From: Flavobacteriia bacterium
Lineage (GTDB): Bacteria; Bacteroidota; Bacteroidia; Flavobacteriales_D; Crocinitomicaceae
Assembly (NCBI GenBank): GCA_947446925.1
Contig: CANFHU010000001.1
Coordinates: 186,001-250,000 of the forward strand
Direction: 5' to 3'
DNA length: 64,000 nucleotides
In this document: positions 23,180-28,806 of the stretch, piece after piece
How the letters are laid out: each line of letters starts with the position of its first letter
Numbering within the stretch: the first letter of the stretch is position 1
Translations under genes and position numbers: made by a program
The notes under the pieces: model-generated
Told to the model about the DNA's origin: nothing
What the model saw: the letters and a program-made list of their open reading frames with translations, nothing else
Database searches by the model: none

Positions 23180-23193
23180 TGGATTTTAATTGA

Positions 23194-23240
23194 TTTTTTT
23201 GTAGTAGGTATAGGGCATGCCCTACCTACTACAAAAAAAA
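23194..23240. repeat. Long imperfect palindrome (REP-like or bidirectional hairpin)
   Basis: Stem GTAGTAGGT + AGGGC pairs with GCCCT + ACCTACTAC; there is a 2-nt bulge (AT) and a 2-nt centre. It is flanked outside by 7 T and 8 A residues that extend the symmetry. It would end transcription in both directions, but it is longer than needed for a terminator and could be an isolated REP/MITE-like element. Confidence 0.75.
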
Positions 23241-23244
23241 TATC

Positions 23245-23268
23245 GCCTCACGTATGTGGGGCTTTTTT
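23245..23268 (+). terminator. Rho-independent terminator after nbaC
   Basis: A 7-bp stem GCCTCAC/GTGGGGC (one G-T pair), loop GTAT, then six T residues. Confidence 0.75.
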
Positions 23269-23338
23269 GTGCCTTTTAAATAGTCGGGTCAAGTTGAGCG
23301 AAGACAAAACTCCCACCAAAAAGTGTAACGTTTCACAT

Positions 23339-23354
23339 AAAGTCGTACGACTTT
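23339..23354. repeat. 16-bp perfect palindrome before the large outer-membrane gene
   Basis: AAAGTCGTACGACTTT followed by T residues, about 65 bp upstream of the -7 box for the next gene. It may be a third hairpin terminator or an operator. Confidence 0.5.
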
Positions 23355-23419
23355 TTGTAAATCACCTCTGAAAAAATTTCAAAATCACACAATAATTTCA
23401 TCTTTACGGTAGTTAAATG

Positions 23420-23427
23420 TATTTTCG
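23420..23427 (+). promoter_or_regulatory. -7-like box (TATTTTCG) for the large outer-membrane gene
   Basis: A TAnnTT(T/C)G variant ending 5 bp before the GTG start at 23433. Transcription would begin at or next to the start codon, giving an almost leaderless mRNA unless the true start is further downstream. Confidence 0.35.
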
Positions 23428-23432
23428 TACTA

Positions 23433-26400
23433 GTGAAGTTCTCTCGAAAAATTCTACTGGTTCTAATCCTCCTCCTCTTCCAACTTCTAGCGATTGGACA
23501 AGAGTCGAACCTACGTAGAAAAACGTTTTTTCCGAGTGCTTCCCCCCAACTCCTAGATACATTTACCGTGTACCCTTCCACGGTGAAGGTGTTTGTAAAA
23601 GGAATACTTCTTCCCAAAGAACAGTATGAAATCAATCCTACAAACGGAACAATAGCATTTTTACAAATTCCATCCGATAGTGTATTCGTAGAATTTCGTG
23701 TGTTACCGATACAGTTATCCAAAACGTATAAAGTCCGAGATACTAGCCAAATTTATACGAACCATAAAGGAGAATATGAAAAGTTTCTACAAGCGCAAAA
23801 AATAAATTACGACGATGTATTTGGTTCTTCTGGACTCAAAAAATCAGGGAGTATCTCCAGAGGTTTATCCTTTGGAAATAACCAAAATGTATCCTTAAAT
23901 TCAACCTTAAACTTAGAATTATCGGGAGATATTGCTCCAAATTTGAAGATTTTAGCTTCGGTAACCGATAAAAACATTCCGATGCAACCCGAAGGAAATA
24001 CCAGCAAACTCCAAGAATTTGACCAAGTGTTTATTCAAATTTATAACGACAAATTCAAACTAATCGCTGGGGATTTCTGGATTAATAAACCACAAGGATA
24101 TTTCTTGACCTACAAAAAAAGGGGACAAGGGGTAAGTACTGAATACCAATGGAAAAATGCGACTGGTGGCACATGGAACACCAGTGCTGCCATTGGATTA
24201 TCCAAAGGAAAATATGCACGACAAATCATTCCTGGAATTGAAGGGAATCAAGGTCCATACAGACTAAAAGGCAACGAAAACGAACCTTTCATTGTTGTAT
24301 TATCCGGTACGGAAAAAGTATATATCGATGGACGCTTGTTAAGTCGCGGACAAGAGAATGATTATATGATCAACTATAACACCGCGGAAGTAACCTTTAC
24401 GAGTAGAAATAACATCACCAAAGATGCTCGAATTGTCATTGAATTTCAGTATTCCGATCAAAATTATGCACGTTCATTAGCGACTGCAAATCTCGCATAT
24501 CAAAAAAATAAGTTTGGTTTTTGGTTAAACACCTACTCCGAACAAGATGCTAAAAACCAAACCTTACAACAAAGTTTGTCGAACCCCCAAAAACTATTAT
24601 TAGCATCTGTAGGGGATAGTCTGCAATTAGCGAATACATTGAGTATCGATTCCATCGGATTCTTAGAAAACCAAAACATGTATCGGAAAATAGATTCGCT
24701 TGGCTTTTCGAATGTGCTGGTGTATTCCATCGATCCAAAGCAAGCATATAATCAATGTACCTTTACCTATGTCGGTGCAAACAAAGGAAATTATGTGTTT
24801 GAAAAATTTAATGCATTAGGGAAAATTTTTCATTGGGTTGCGCCAATTAATGGACAGGAACAAGGAGATTATGAACCTATACGTTTGCTCATTACGCCTA
24901 AACAAAAACAATTTGTTGCTTCCGGAGTTTCCTGTAAATTTTCCCCGAAAAATAGTATTGAAACCGAGTTTGCAAGTAGCAAAAACGACCAAAATACTTT
25001 TTCCCAATTAGATAAAGGAAACGATGTAGGAATCAGTAACCATACGAAATTTAATAATGAAGTTTTTATCGGGAAAGACAGTTTAAGTAACTGGAAACTA
25101 AAAAATAAAGCAGAATTAGAATTTTTATCCACCCATTTTTCACCGATTGAAATTTACCGTTCTGCAGAATTTGACCGCGATTGGAACACCCGAAACAAAG
25201 GGTTTACGGGACAGCAACTTTCCACTTCCATAGCGACTACTATCGAACATCGAAAAAAAGGGAACATCGGACTTGAAGCAACTCGCTATGCAATTGGTGG
25301 GGATTATCTAGGTAAAAAAGCTGTTTTTGCAGGCCAATGGAAATCTCATGGAGTAGATGCAGATTGGACAAGTAGTTATTTAGAAAGTCAAACCAAACAA
25401 ACTACAAATTCTTATATTAGACATAAAGCAACGATTACCAAACAACTAGGTAAACTAAAAATAGGCTATAAAGACGACCAAGAAGATAATCGTTTTTCGA
25501 CAGCAACCCTTTTTAATCCTGCAAGTTATTCCTTTTTTGATTACCAAGTATTTTTAGCAAACGCCGATTCGTCGCGCTTAAACTACAAACTATTTTACCG
25601 TGAACGTTACGATAAACGCTCCGACAGTTCGAGACTTACACCGGTTGCAAAAGCACGAACATTCGGCTCTGAAATTTCCTTTCTTTCACAAAAAAACCAA
25701 CACCTAAATTTTATCTTAAATTACCGGGAACTCACCATTTCAAATGCTAAATTAATCAATCAAACTCCTGAAAACACCTTGTTGGGCAGATTGGATTACG
25801 ATCTAAATGTATGGAAAGGCGCATTTACCTGGAATTCCTTTTACGAATTAGGAAGTGGATTAGAACTCAAAAAAGAATTTTTATATATCAAAGTCAACGA
25901 CGGACAAGGAGTGTATACATGGATCGATTATAACCAAGATGGCATCAAAGATTTAAATGAATTTGAAATCGCACAATTTGTCGATCAAGCGAGCTATATT
26001 CGGGTATTTACGCCAAGTAATAATTATGTAAAAACATATAGCAACGAGTTAAATCAAGGTATATTTTTTAAACCCGAAAAAATTTGGCAAAATGCAACAG
26101 GTATAAAGAAAGTGATAGGTCTTATGTCCGATCAATTACGAATGCGTATCAATCGTAAAACAAATCATTTCGATGGAAGTTCGTATTTCAATCCGTTTAT
26201 CTTTCAAATATCCGACACGTCATTAATTAGTAACAACTATAACCTTCGAAATACACTTTATTTTAACCGTACTAGTTCCATTATCGGAGGAGAATATATT
26301 TATCAAGACAACCAAACAAAAACACTTTTGGCAACCGGATTTGATGCGCGCAACCAACGTTACCATGAATTCAACCTTCGTTGGAACATAAAACGGGTTA

Positions 26401-26870
26401 TTTTATTCGAAATCAATTACCAACAAGGAACGAAAGAGGTCAAAGCAGATTATACTTCTGGTAGAAACTTCTTCTTGCATTATCGACAACTAAAACCAAC
26501 AATTAGTTACCAACCTTCTACTACCACACGTTTCACCCTTGAATCCCGATTTTCAAATAAAAATGCCATTTCAGGGGAACATGCCTATGTAAAAGAACTT
26601 ACCCTTCGAAGTAAATACAACCAAGCAGAAAAAGGAAGTTTACAAGCGAGTTTTTCCCTTTTACAAATCAACTTTCAAGGAAATGCAAGTTCGGCTGTTG
26701 GATTTGAACTCCTCGAAGCACTCAAACCAGGAAATAATGCTACGTGGAATGTGGGGTACCAACGAAATGTCTCCAAAAAACTCCAAATCTCGATACAATA
26801 TACTGGAAGAAAATCCGAAAGTAGTCGCATGATACATACTGGAGGAATGGAAGTTAGGGCGTATTTTTAA
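23433..26870 (+). CDS. Large predicted outer-membrane beta-barrel-like protein
   Basis: A 1145-aa protein starting at GTG with a signal peptide (hydrophobic stretch ILLVLILLLFQLLAIGQ). After an N-terminal beta-rich domain comes a block SGSISRGLSFGNNQN ... NLELSGDIAPNLKILASVTD (about 138-175) that recurs in very large uncharacterised Bacteroidota envelope proteins. The remainder alternates short polar/aromatic strands as in outer-membrane barrels and ends in VRAYF, an aromatic C-terminus expected of Bam substrates. Function is unknown. The 3' end is duplicated beyond the neighbouring DUF1016 gene. Confidence 0.75.
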   Translation: MKFSRKILLVLILLLFQLLAIGQESNLRRKTFFPSASPQLLDTFTVYPSTVKVFVKGILLPKEQYEINPTNGTIAFLQIPSDSVFVEFRVLPIQLSKTYKVRDTSQIYTNHKGEYEKFLQAQKINYDDVFGSSGLKKSGSISRGLSFGNNQNVSLNSTLNLELSGDIAPNLKILASVTDKNIPMQPEGNTSKLQEFDQVFIQIYNDKFKLIAGDFWINKPQGYFLTYKKRGQGVSTEYQWKNATGGTWNTSAAIGLSKGKYARQIIPGIEGNQGPYRLKGNENEPFIVVLSGTEKVYIDGRLLSRGQENDYMINYNTAEVTFTSRNNITKDARIVIEFQYSDQNYARSLATANLAYQKNKFGFWLNTYSEQDAKNQTLQQSLSNPQKLLLASVGDSLQLANTLSIDSIGFLENQNMYRKIDSLGFSNVLVYSIDPKQAYNQCTFTYVGANKGNYVFEKFNALGKIFHWVAPINGQEQGDYEPIRLLITPKQKQFVASGVSCKFSPKNSIETEFASSKNDQNTFSQLDKGNDVGISNHTKFNNEVFIGKDSLSNWKLKNKAELEFLSTHFSPIEIYRSAEFDRDWNTRNKGFTGQQLSTSIATTIEHRKKGNIGLEATRYAIGGDYLGKKAVFAGQWKSHGVDADWTSSYLESQTKQTTNSYIRHKATITKQLGKLKIGYKDDQEDNRFSTATLFNPASYSFFDYQVFLANADSSRLNYKLFYRERYDKRSDSSRLTPVAKARTFGSEISFLSQKNQHLNFILNYRELTISNAKLINQTPENTLLGRLDYDLNVWKGAFTWNSFYELGSGLELKKEFLYIKVNDGQGVYTWIDYNQDGIKDLNEFEIAQFVDQASYIRVFTPSNNYVKTYSNELNQGIFFKPEKIWQNATGIKKVIGLMSDQLRMRINRKTNHFDGSSYFNPFIFQISDTSLISNNYNLRNTLYFNRTSSIIGGEYIYQDNQTKTLLATGFDARNQRYHEFNLRWNIKRVILFEINYQQGTKEVKADYTSGRNFFLHYRQLKPTISYQPSTTTRFTLESRFSNKNAISGEHAYVKELTLRSKYNQAEKGSLQASFSLLQINFQGNASSAVGFELLEALKPGNNATWNVGYQRNVSKKLQISIQYTGRKSESSRMIHTGGMEVRAYF
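26823..26870 (+). repeat. 3'-end repeat of the outer-membrane gene, proximal copy
   Basis: The last 16 codons (S-R-M-I-H-T-G-G-M-E-V-R-A-Y-F-stop). They match 28119-28166 at 41 of 48 bases; the final 24 bases (26847-26870) are identical. Confidence 0.9.
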
Positions 26871-26900
26871 AGGTTATTAAAACGTAAATCTCTACCTAAA

Positions 26901-28043
26901 TTAAACTCCTAGATCGTTTAAATTCTCTTCAATTTCTTCCACACTTGGTAAACTACCTTTTAGATTATCCGGTAAAATACGCGTTAATTCATATTCTGAG
27001 ATTCCAATCGGTTTATGGATATCCCGTAAGGTATATTCTGCAAACAATTTGTCTTTCCCTTGGCATAAAATTAGCCCAATTGTCGGTTTGTCAGTTTCAT
27101 GTTTGAGTTGTGCATCCACGGCAGAACAATAGAAGTTCATTTTTCCTGCAAATTCAGGTATAAACTCACCTTTTTTCAATTCAATTACAACAAAACACCT
27201 CATTTTAAGATGGTAGAACAATAAATCAAGGTAAAAATCTCTATCACTTACCACTAACTTATATTGTCGCCCAACAAAAGCAAAACCAGCACCCAACTCC
27301 ACCAAAAATTTTTCAACGTGCTTTACTAAATTTAATTCTAACTCACGTTCCGTATATTCCGTTGCTAAAGTTGTAAAGTCAAATATGTACGGATCTTTAA
27401 ATAAATGTTTGGCCCAAGCTGAATGATCAACAGGTAGTGTGTGATCAAAATTATTTATGAACGTTCCTTGGCGTTCGTGTACCTTGCTTTTGATTTGTAC
27501 GATCAAGGTATCATAACTCCAACCATTTTGTATAATTTGTTGCATATACCAAATTCGTATAGAGAGGTCTTTTATTTTTTGGATTAATAATGAATGGTGT
27601 GACCAACTAAGCTTATTAAACAATTGTTCATCAATCATTTGTAATTTCGCCAAGGCTTTTGGCGAAATTGGAGTTTCTTCTGTTTTTAATTCCGACACGG
27701 CTAGTGGCGGAATTAAATTAGCTTCATTTTCTAATTTTGCAACGGGCAGTTGCCAAATTGTAAGGGATTGATATTCTTTATAAAAAGTAAGCATACGTAA
27801 AATATTCCTCTCCGAAAATCCTTTCGCATCACTCAATTCATTTTTTAAATCAACTGCCAAACGTGGGATTACTCCTTTTCCCCAACCTTCTTGTTGTTGT
27901 CGTTCGTGAATCATTTTACCAATATCCCAATAAGTAGCCAACATCTCGGCATTTGCCGTTTGAAATACTTTCGTTTGTCCTTGTCGAACACGTGCTTTAA
28001 TGCCTCCTAATAAGTCTTTATAGTTTGTTAATTCATTACGCAT
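26901..28043 (-). CDS. DUF1016 (YhcG-type) PD-(D/E)xK nuclease-domain protein
   Basis: A 380-aa protein. The N-terminal DUF1016_N domain includes ATYWDIGKMIHERQQQEGWG and GFSERNILRML. The C-terminal nuclease-like domain has DRDFYLDLLFYHL (Asp about 272) and VIELKKGEF (E-x-K about 288). Family members are scattered, often carried on mobile DNA, and frequently near restriction or defence genes. Here it is alone, inserted between the end of the outer-membrane gene and a second copy of that gene's last codons. A repetitive Lys/Glu/Pro stretch (about 105-135) sits between the domains. Two 15-bp direct repeats lie upstream of its start. Confidence 0.92.
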   Translation of the reverse strand: MRNELTNYKDLLGGIKARVRQGQTKVFQTANAEMLATYWDIGKMIHERQQQEGWGKGVIPRLAVDLKNELSDAKGFSERNILRMLTFYKEYQSLTIWQLPVAKLENEANLIPPLAVSELKTEETPISPKALAKLQMIDEQLFNKLSWSHHSLLIQKIKDLSIRIWYMQQIIQNGWSYDTLIVQIKSKVHERQGTFINNFDHTLPVDHSAWAKHLFKDPYIFDFTTLATEYTERELELNLVKHVEKFLVELGAGFAFVGRQYKLVVSDRDFYLDLLFYHLKMRCFVVIELKKGEFIPEFAGKMNFYCSAVDAQLKHETDKPTIGLILCQGKDKLFAEYTLRDIHKPIGISEYELTRILPDNLKGSLPSVEEIEENLNDLGV

Positions 28044-28057
28044 ATATCTAATTTAGT

Positions 28058-28096
28058 GAAATAGATAAAATTAATTGTAACGAAATAGATAAAATT
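28058..28096. promoter_or_regulatory. Paired 15-bp direct repeats upstream of the DUF1016 gene
   Basis: GAAATAGATAAAATT at 28058-28072 and 28082-28096, one period of 24 bp, 15-53 bp before the start codon. The placement suggests operator half-sites. On the minus strand each copy contains a TATTTC -7-like element, so they may instead reflect promoter duplication. Confidence 0.5.
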
Positions 28097-28118
28097 TTAT
28101 TGAATTATTTTCTTTTTT

Positions 28119-28166
28119 AGCCGGTTGATTCATACAGGTGGTATGGAAGTTAGGGCGTATTTTTAA
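28119..28166 (+). repeat. Diverged distal copy of the outer-membrane gene's 3' end
   Basis: It encodes S-R-L-I-H-T-G-G-M-E-V-R-A-Y-F-stop. Six of the seven base differences from 26823-26870 fall at third codon positions and only one residue changes, so this was a functional coding end before separation. The right-hand 24 bp (28143-28166) is identical to the proximal copy. Confidence 0.9.
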
Positions 28167-28227
28167 CTAAACAATAATTTTGCGTTAAAAACAGTTAATT
28201 TAATTACCAAGGTAAATAATTTTGTTG

Positions 28228-28235
28228 TACATTTG
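28228..28235 (+). promoter_or_regulatory. -7 box (TACATTTG) for the YceI-family gene
   Basis: A TAnnTTTG match 28 bp upstream of the ATG at 28264. Confidence 0.55.
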
Positions 28236-28263
28236 AAATATCAACCTAAAAAACGAAAATAAT

Positions 28264-28806
28264 ATGTCAACATTAGTTAAAACAACTTGGGCAATAGATC
28301 CAACTCACTCGGAAGTAGAATTCAAAATCAAACACTTGGTAATTTCTACTGTAAAAGGAATTTTTAAAGAATTTACAGGTTCTGTAGATGTAGAAGGAAA
28401 TGATTTCACAACAGCTGAATTTCATTTTGAAGCAAATGTAGATTCTATCTTTACAAACCAAGCAGATAGAGATGGTCACTTGAAATCAGCGGATTTCTTT
28501 GATGTTGCTAACTACCCAAAAATTTCTTTCAAATCTACGGAGGTTACTAAAAAATCAGATGATAACTATACAATCACAGGGGATTTAACAGTAAGAGACG
28601 TAACTAAAACAGTTCATTTAACTGCTGAATTTGGTGGTGTTGCTACAGATCCTTACGGAAATGTAAAAGCTGGTTTCGAAATTACAGGTGCTATTAACCG
28701 TAAAGAGTTTGGTTTAACTTTCCACGCAGTTACAGAAGCTGGCAACATCGTGTTAGGTGAAGACATCAAATTAAACATTAACGTACAATTTGCGAAACAA
28801 GCTTAA
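28264..28806 (+). CDS. YceI-family lipid-binding-like protein
   Basis: A 180-aa protein covering the full YceI domain: WAIDPTHSEVEFKIKHLV at the start, SADFFDVANYPKISFKS in the middle, and GAINRKEFGLTFHAV near the end. The fold is a lipocalin-like barrel that binds polyisoprenoids or other amphiphiles in characterised members. No signal peptide is present, so this version is probably cytosolic, unlike E. coli YceI. It is monocistronic, with its own -7 box and a strong terminator. Confidence 0.93.
   Translation: MSTLVKTTWAIDPTHSEVEFKIKHLVISTVKGIFKEFTGSVDVEGNDFTTAEFHFEANVDSIFTNQADRDGHLKSADFFDVANYPKISFKSTEVTKKSDDNYTITGDLTVRDVTKTVHLTAEFGGVATDPYGNVKAGFEITGAINRKEFGLTFHAVTEAGNIVLGEDIKLNINVQFAKQA

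Follow-up and report, generated by a model that had tools for sequence, protein, structure and literature searches.

A DUF1016/YhcG nuclease-family gene, which lies between two copies of the 3' end of a neighbouring 1145-amino-acid (aa) gene, is probably carried as the payload of a cassette that lacks an integrase and owes its portability to those two flanking gene ends. We analysed a stretch of 64,000 nucleotides (nt) from a Flavobacteriia bacterium of the Crocinitomicaceae (assembly GCA_947446925.1, contig CANFHU010000001.1, positions 186,001 to 250,000), hereafter the window, together with related genomes. The comparisons suggest transfer of such genes from species to species by way of the flanking gene ends, in a unit without integrase or transposase. 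G000 denotes the window's own genome, other G numbers its relatives and L numbers the loci of a census; the 1145-aa gene is called the target. The features of the locus, most of them open reading frames (ORFs) or junction pieces, are as follows.

23433..26870, plus strand: target gene, 1145 aa, from the ORF list; orthologues in 36/40 relatives' genomes searched; no Pfam match
26823..26870, plus strand: copy 1, the target's functional 3' end (repeat search and direct reading)
26871..26900, no strand: cassette flank, from the target stop to the DUF1016 stop (direct reading; similar flank in G008 and G009)
26901..28043, minus strand: DUF1016/YhcG PD-(D/E)XK nuclease gene, 380 aa, convergent with the target (ORF, Pfam, 13-sequence alignment)
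28044..28118, no strand: region upstream of DUF1016, on the cassette side at the right junction (alignment with G008, G009 and G004)
28119..28142, plus strand: left half of copy 2, diverged from copy 1 and near the copy-2 left halves of G008 and G009
28143..28166, plus strand: right half of copy 2, identical to copy 1; the displaced native end
28167..28263, no strand: native flank of the target gene (72/91 match to the flank after the single end of G010)
28264..28806, plus strand: YceI gene (PF04264), the ancestral downstream neighbour; directly after the target in G010 and G006

Gene ends at the 1145-aa target

The repeat search paired 26822-26870 with 28118-28166 (49 nt, 86% identity). The original prediction had the last 16 codons of the target recurring downstream, with only the DUF1016 gene and about 100 bp in between, and direct reading agreed: the last 48 nt (15 codons and the stop) stand again at 28119-28166, and the 1248 bp separating the copies consist of the minus-strand DUF1016 ORF and 105 bp. 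The copies do not differ in their right 24 nt and show 7 differences in their left 24 nt, 6 at third codon positions and 1 at a first position (ATG to TTG), again as had been described. DUF1016 is the only ORF of at least 80 aa between the copies and no integrase ORF was found in the 1248-bp unit, which, with the Pfam domains given below, bears out the description of a nuclease-like gene without a visible integrase. The label 'outer-membrane gene' for the target was not confirmed, as the protein had no Pfam match and only a sub-threshold NCBIfam match.

The identical 24-nt core has two exact sites in the 3.15-Mb genome and none further at up to 3 mismatches, and a reversed control pattern had none. 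A search for it beside other DUF1016 genes had been suggested; it occurs in the genome at this locus only, and several other DUF1016 genes carry repeats of their own neighbours. Since the core is the target's own end and other DUF1016 genes are flanked by their own neighbours' ends, there appears to be no element-specific core. The earlier idea of a site-specific type of insertion thus stands as a one-gene cassette at a 3' end with the frame kept (G010 and G006 being empty), and not as a site-specific element with its own core.

We compared the alleles of the 11 same-genus genomes that have the target gene, the window's own included, within the fetched stretches. A DUF1016 gene, intact or decayed, and a second end follow the target in 4/11 (G000, G008, G009 and G004), and the remaining 7/11 have a single end with no DUF1016 gene directly after it; two ends without a DUF1016 gene, the arrangement that would speak against insertion, were found in none (4/4 two-ended alleles have the gene, 7/7 alleles without it are single-ended). 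Strains with a single end followed directly by YceI had been anticipated, and G010 and G006 are such empty alleles. In G008 and G009 the DUF1016 genes are decayed by internal deletions, with 137 and 250 aa remaining. These relatives show an insertion at the 3' end of the target, and because three same-genus genomes independently have the same architecture, that of the window is neither chance nor a misassembly of one genome.

The DNA 3' of copy 2 is different in each filled allele: YceI in G000, a gene cluster with a relative of a Por_Secre_tail-bearing G001 gene and then YceI in G008, uvrC in G009, and a Por_Secre_tail phosphoesterase gene in G004. With these four downstream contexts, the similarity between copy 2 and the gene stops at the stop codon (TAA, TAA, TGA and TGA, respectively). 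The left half of copy 2 is closely alike in G000, G008 and G009, and the right half is variable.

The flanks indicate which copy is native. The 72/91 match to G010 listed above concerns the flank after window copy 2, so that this copy carries the native flank. In G008 a further, partial end (the third, 24 nt) is located before YceI; the DNA after this end matches the flank after window copy 2 (94/98), and the flank after G008 copy 2 matches the target-gene flank of G001 (266/345), which has no DUF1016 gene there. As a control, the G008 copy-2 flank gave only a short match with the window copy-1 flank (25/30). From these two flank matches, G008 holds two stacked insertions, the newer one adjoining the gene. 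The flank after copy 2 of G009 had no match in G010, as expected if the downstream DNA of G009 differs.

We then consider the divergence of the two ends, using 18 coding-end pairs that we selected (4 from the 1145-aa gene and 5 from a luciferase-like gene described below; at least L352 was omitted). Differences occupy 106.5/291 synonymous versus 51.5/1089 nonsynonymous sites, a ratio of nonsynonymous to synonymous differences per site (pN/pS) of 0.13 (bootstrap by target, 0.09-0.17); one pair per target gave 0.14 (0.10-0.20). The smallest pairs are individually weak, L103 having one silent and one coding change. For a decaying fresh duplicate, with one copy constrained and the other free, we estimate that a pN/pS near 0.5 would be expected. 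Because the value is well below this, the displaced end must have belonged to a functioning gene until a short time ago, and the two ends stem from different alleles; both copies were thus functional gene ends, as had been proposed for the second copy in the window. This ratio and the flank homology at both loci mark the displaced fragment as the former end of the recipient gene.

Upstream of the target, the window (23180-23432) is without an AAA-like gene of about 438 aa (labelled by eye; 418 aa listed in G004) that is present there in G009, G004 and G005. Both sides of the 1145-aa gene are therefore fluid in the genus.

A recently exchanged unit at a luciferase-like gene

A second locus of the same genome is a clearer case than the window locus. 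Here, at G000:C1:65948, another DUF1016 gene stands after a luciferase-like gene (PF00296), and the end of the latter is present a second time (89 bp). The luciferase-like genes of G000 and G008 are about 89% identical, with 82-92% per 100 bp until a mismatch 29 bp before the gene end. The next 1447 bp, comprising the new tail, the DUF1016 gene and the first 29 bp of copy 2, contain 2 mismatches, and beyond this unit divergence resumes inside copy 2 and the flank. The identity step at the gene end limits the replaced tail to the last 29 bp or less. Because the near-identity starts in the gene tail and stops within copy 2, the recently exchanged unit is the payload plus pieces of the gene end, bounded inside both repeats. 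The main result rests on G000 and G008, whose contigs exceed 100 kb at the locus; G012:C130, which is also compared below, is a short contig and possibly mis-binned. Recombination from a cassette-carrying relative, which the original prediction had offered as an alternative, is favoured by this sharp identity tract.

G010 is empty at this locus; the DNA flanking its gene resembles that after copy 2 in G008 (101/123) and in G012 (102/123). The tail of empty G010, which encodes NGGE, is found on the displaced ends of G005, G008 and G012, and copy 1 has other tails. The site also accepts other payloads, since in G001 and G005 two ends of the luciferase-like gene enclose a decayed KilA-N gene, and an intact one follows the gene in G009, where one end was seen.

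The place taken by DUF1016 after the luciferase-like gene is occupied by HipA-like (G010), RhuM-like (G003) and KilA-N (G009) genes, those of G010 and G003 being labelled by eye.

Flanking repeats of single genes

A census of 132 DUF1016 profile hits at 130 loci yielded 125 genes with usable flanks. Repeats were called by local alignment of the left against the right flank at a score of at least 25, with neighbouring genes of at least 150 aa as controls. Long flanking direct repeats were present at 21/125 DUF1016 genes versus 8/459 neighbouring genes (Fisher p 1.9e-9). In 10 of these 21 the repeat is the 3' coding end of a long neighbouring gene (3 of them at the 1145-aa gene) and most of the others are intergenic, among which L108, L142 and L216 are possibly dispersed repeats. 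Two genes entered the census twice (G001:C45 as L093 and L249, G007:C243 as L095 and L250); they did not score and only enlarged the denominator. The repeats measure about 36-340 bp and include near-identical ones (74 bp exact at L215, 58/60 at L103). The duplicated neighbours include HsdM-type methylases (L103, L100, L233 and L208), a relative of IMP dehydrogenase (L153; NCBIfam, below the curated cut-off) and an MtaA/HemE-like protein (L157; below cut-off), and by record titles the DUF1016 repeat cases span several phyla.

Two further families were sampled as controls, RhuM at 40/60 listed places (39 usable) and KilA-N at 24/29 listed places (22 usable). In the same-order comparison, repeats were counted at 10/45 DUF1016, 10/39 RhuM, 0/22 KilA-N and 13/307 neighbouring genes; DUF1016 differed from the neighbouring genes (p 1.4e-4) and not from RhuM and KilA-N pooled (10/61; p 0.46). 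Among the RhuM cases, the duplicated end belongs to dnaE at L351 and to a sigma-70 factor at L358 and L359, two hits with a common target; at least one of the 10, L355, resembles a terminator repeat. A signature specific to the nuclease is rejected as stated, because the RhuM frequency matches that of DUF1016. The gene-end footprint is thus wider than DUF1016 and extends to RhuM.

The window DUF1016 ORF matches PF06250 YhcG_C (E 9.4e-64) and PF17761 DUF1016_N (E 3.1e-37), both over the cut-off; these were its only domain matches, with no intein-like endonuclease or zinc finger among them. In the 13-sequence alignment D273 and K290 are invariant and position 288 is E or D, which we take to be the PD-(D/E)XK active-site motif. 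The predicted structure is poor (mean predicted local distance difference test score 56.1), and a sequence search at E up to 0.1 gave no relative of solved structure. PADLOC candidate-defence models match all three payload types (PDC-S02, PDC-S05/S23 and PDC-S22), where the S presumably stands for single-gene. We found no description of gene-end replacement by DUF1016/YhcG or RhuM among titles and abstract openings of the open-access literature. That DUF1016 genes are carried by other mobile elements is already known, according to the part of PMC4316617 available to us.

Several census loci have distinctive arrangements. In G000:C7:91117-95202 (L002, 1486-3476), a RhuM gene (PF13310) lies between a methylase-like gene and DUF1016, with an exact 20-bp repeat at both RhuM junctions, such that the RhuM C-terminus repeats the last codons of the methylase. 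A tandem DUF1016 pair in G110:C43 (L221, 565-3128) has related repeats before, between and after the genes. At L165 (210-1662), an apparently frameshifted DUF1016 gene has on either side the same 47 bp from a tRNA-Pro gene, an exact repeat of which only the right copy belongs to a complete tRNA. An HsdM-type methylase with a GIY-YIG domain in its C-terminal part adjoins DUF1016 and the duplicated methylase end in G043:C29 (L208, 4803-6819). A mirror case is found in G095:C7 (L343, 2748-3974), where a RhuM gene lies between two 5'-end copies of a glycosyltransferase-like gene whose differences are, by eye, largely silent.

A model of transfer and its alternatives

In the model that we favour, the left copy would complete the target gene and the right copy would be a loose fragment. 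When cassette DNA meets an empty allele, recombination would use the gene end as its left arm and the fragment as its right arm, either as two exchanges or as one exchange with an excised circle. The payload would be inserted regardless of the downstream DNA, the incoming tail would keep the target in frame, and the recipient's old end would be left stranded beyond the payload. The left part of copy 2 would come from the element and its right part from the recipient, which would give the diverged left half and identical right half seen in the window. We infer that homologous recombination is the joining step and that the window locus arose as the luciferase-like locus did. Because RhuM genes show the same repeat footprint, the data also suggest that a nuclease may be unnecessary for spread.

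The model shares features with two kinds of bacterial element. Integrative elements that restore a gene's 3' end likewise leave a restored end and direct repeats, but the present unit has no integrase and no element-specific core. Minimal mobile elements of Neisseria are cassettes exchanged by homologous recombination in flanking genes; here, in contrast, the right arm is a duplicated piece of the left gene, so that the downstream gene need not match.

Several observations weigh against this model. As many as 104/125 DUF1016 genes have no repeat at the threshold, and at the 1145-aa locus no sharp identity step was seen in identity windows or the mismatch map. The flank of G000 copy 2 at the luciferase-like locus, toward a hipBA pair (so labelled from a HipA_C domain in the G009 relative), had no match in G010. 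The G001 DUF1016 gene, 89.5% identical to that of the window, overlaps the end of a radA-like gene (labelled by eye) with no visible second end. Low synonymous divergence (dS) as proof of transfer was also weakened: between G000 and G004, dS is 0.44 for DUF1016, and the YceI control equals it (0.46), against 1.70 for mfd, 1.33 for a 367-aa gene before cox3 (set without the G005 row, a wrong ORF with nonsynonymous divergence >1) and 1.86 for the target; across six genomes, dS of the luciferase-like gene is likewise low (0.26-0.49). In E. coli, yhcG was matched in 4417/5426 genomes and no movement of yhcG was seen in the records opened (five besides K-12), where the gene adjoins nanQ and is intact in 1 and truncated in 4, each truncated one near a transposase gene.

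True homing is possible, albeit doubtful. The DUF1016 nuclease would cut the empty end, and repair from the cassette allele would copy in the nuclease gene together with a resistant tail, the mechanism put forward for the WHO elements of yeast. Tentatively, DUF1016/YhcG and perhaps RhuM might then be bacterial homing genes, single-gene selfish elements that cut empty core-gene ends and restore them with their own tail. The old end would conceivably be kept as an arm for the next transfer, with hsdM, IMP dehydrogenase, dnaE, the sigma-70 factor, the luciferase-like gene and the 1145-aa gene as targets, a picture that we hold no more firmly. The nuclease-family payload with its conserved D273, E/D288 and K290, the short exchanged unit bounded at the gene end, and the decayed DUF1016 genes of G008 and G009 with the stacked ends of G008 fit such a cycle. 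However, the repeats are as frequent at RhuM genes, whose products are, to our knowledge, not known as nucleases, and in G001 and G005 it is KilA-N genes that the two luciferase-like gene ends enclose.

The architecture itself matches that of the WHO elements, which, in the part of PMC7282813 available to us, sit at FBA1 in Torulaspora and Lachancea yeasts. To the extent that they are described there, both have a nuclease gene adjoining the 3' end of a conserved gene with a displaced 3' fragment beyond it (here in the window, G004, G008 and G009), the gene end is swapped for a diverged functional one in the yeasts and probably here (with an identity step at the luciferase-like gene and none seen at the window locus), and in both newer insertions are stacked next to the gene (here one case, G008, with three ends). 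On the same basis they differ in that the present cases are bacterial, with the DUF1016 PD-(D/E)XK family in place of a yeast intein-like zinc-finger endonuclease, and in that the replacement at the luciferase-like gene covers only a short tail and RhuM and KilA-N payloads also occur. The window cassette therefore appears to work like a WHO element and is not filed as one, because nuclease family, host and length of the replaced tail differ and cleavage in the bacterial case is so far a hypothesis.

Insertion with a long target duplication, in which a single entry duplicates 36-200 bp and the copies then drift, is unlikely. Its nearest bacterial precedent is the insertion of restriction-modification genes with target duplications of the order of 100 bp (PMC3874152, citing Nobusato 2000, from the part available to us). 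The lengths in the census agree with this known phenomenon, some repeats are intergenic or near-identical, as at L215 and L103, and the right half of the window repeat is identical. As far as that source describes them, the two cases also share mobile DNA-acting genes that lack a transposase of their own and direct repeats of that order; here, however, the genes are single orphans and the coding-end repeats look like diverged functional alleles, not fresh copies. The mainly silent differences between the coding-end copies, and the luciferase-like gene, where copy 1 and copy 2 have different tails and the native one is that of copy 2, also argue against such an entry in the coding cases. Chance, or old rearrangements that left two ends at a locus fluid on both sides, is already strained and highly improbable given the single-ended empty alleles, the enrichment at DUF1016 and RhuM genes and the 1447-bp identity tract.

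The cassette model bears on how single orphan genes in defence islands might move when they have neither integrase nor transposase: duplicated gene ends are a footprint that is simple to check for, and they suggest a possible mechanism. With a loose piece of the gene upstream, a payload could enter any relative regardless of the DNA on its downstream side. If the nuclease does drive the spread, a large candidate phage-defence family would also be a bacterial counterpart of yeast WHO/HO elements, and core-gene ends would emerge as places where replacement recurs.

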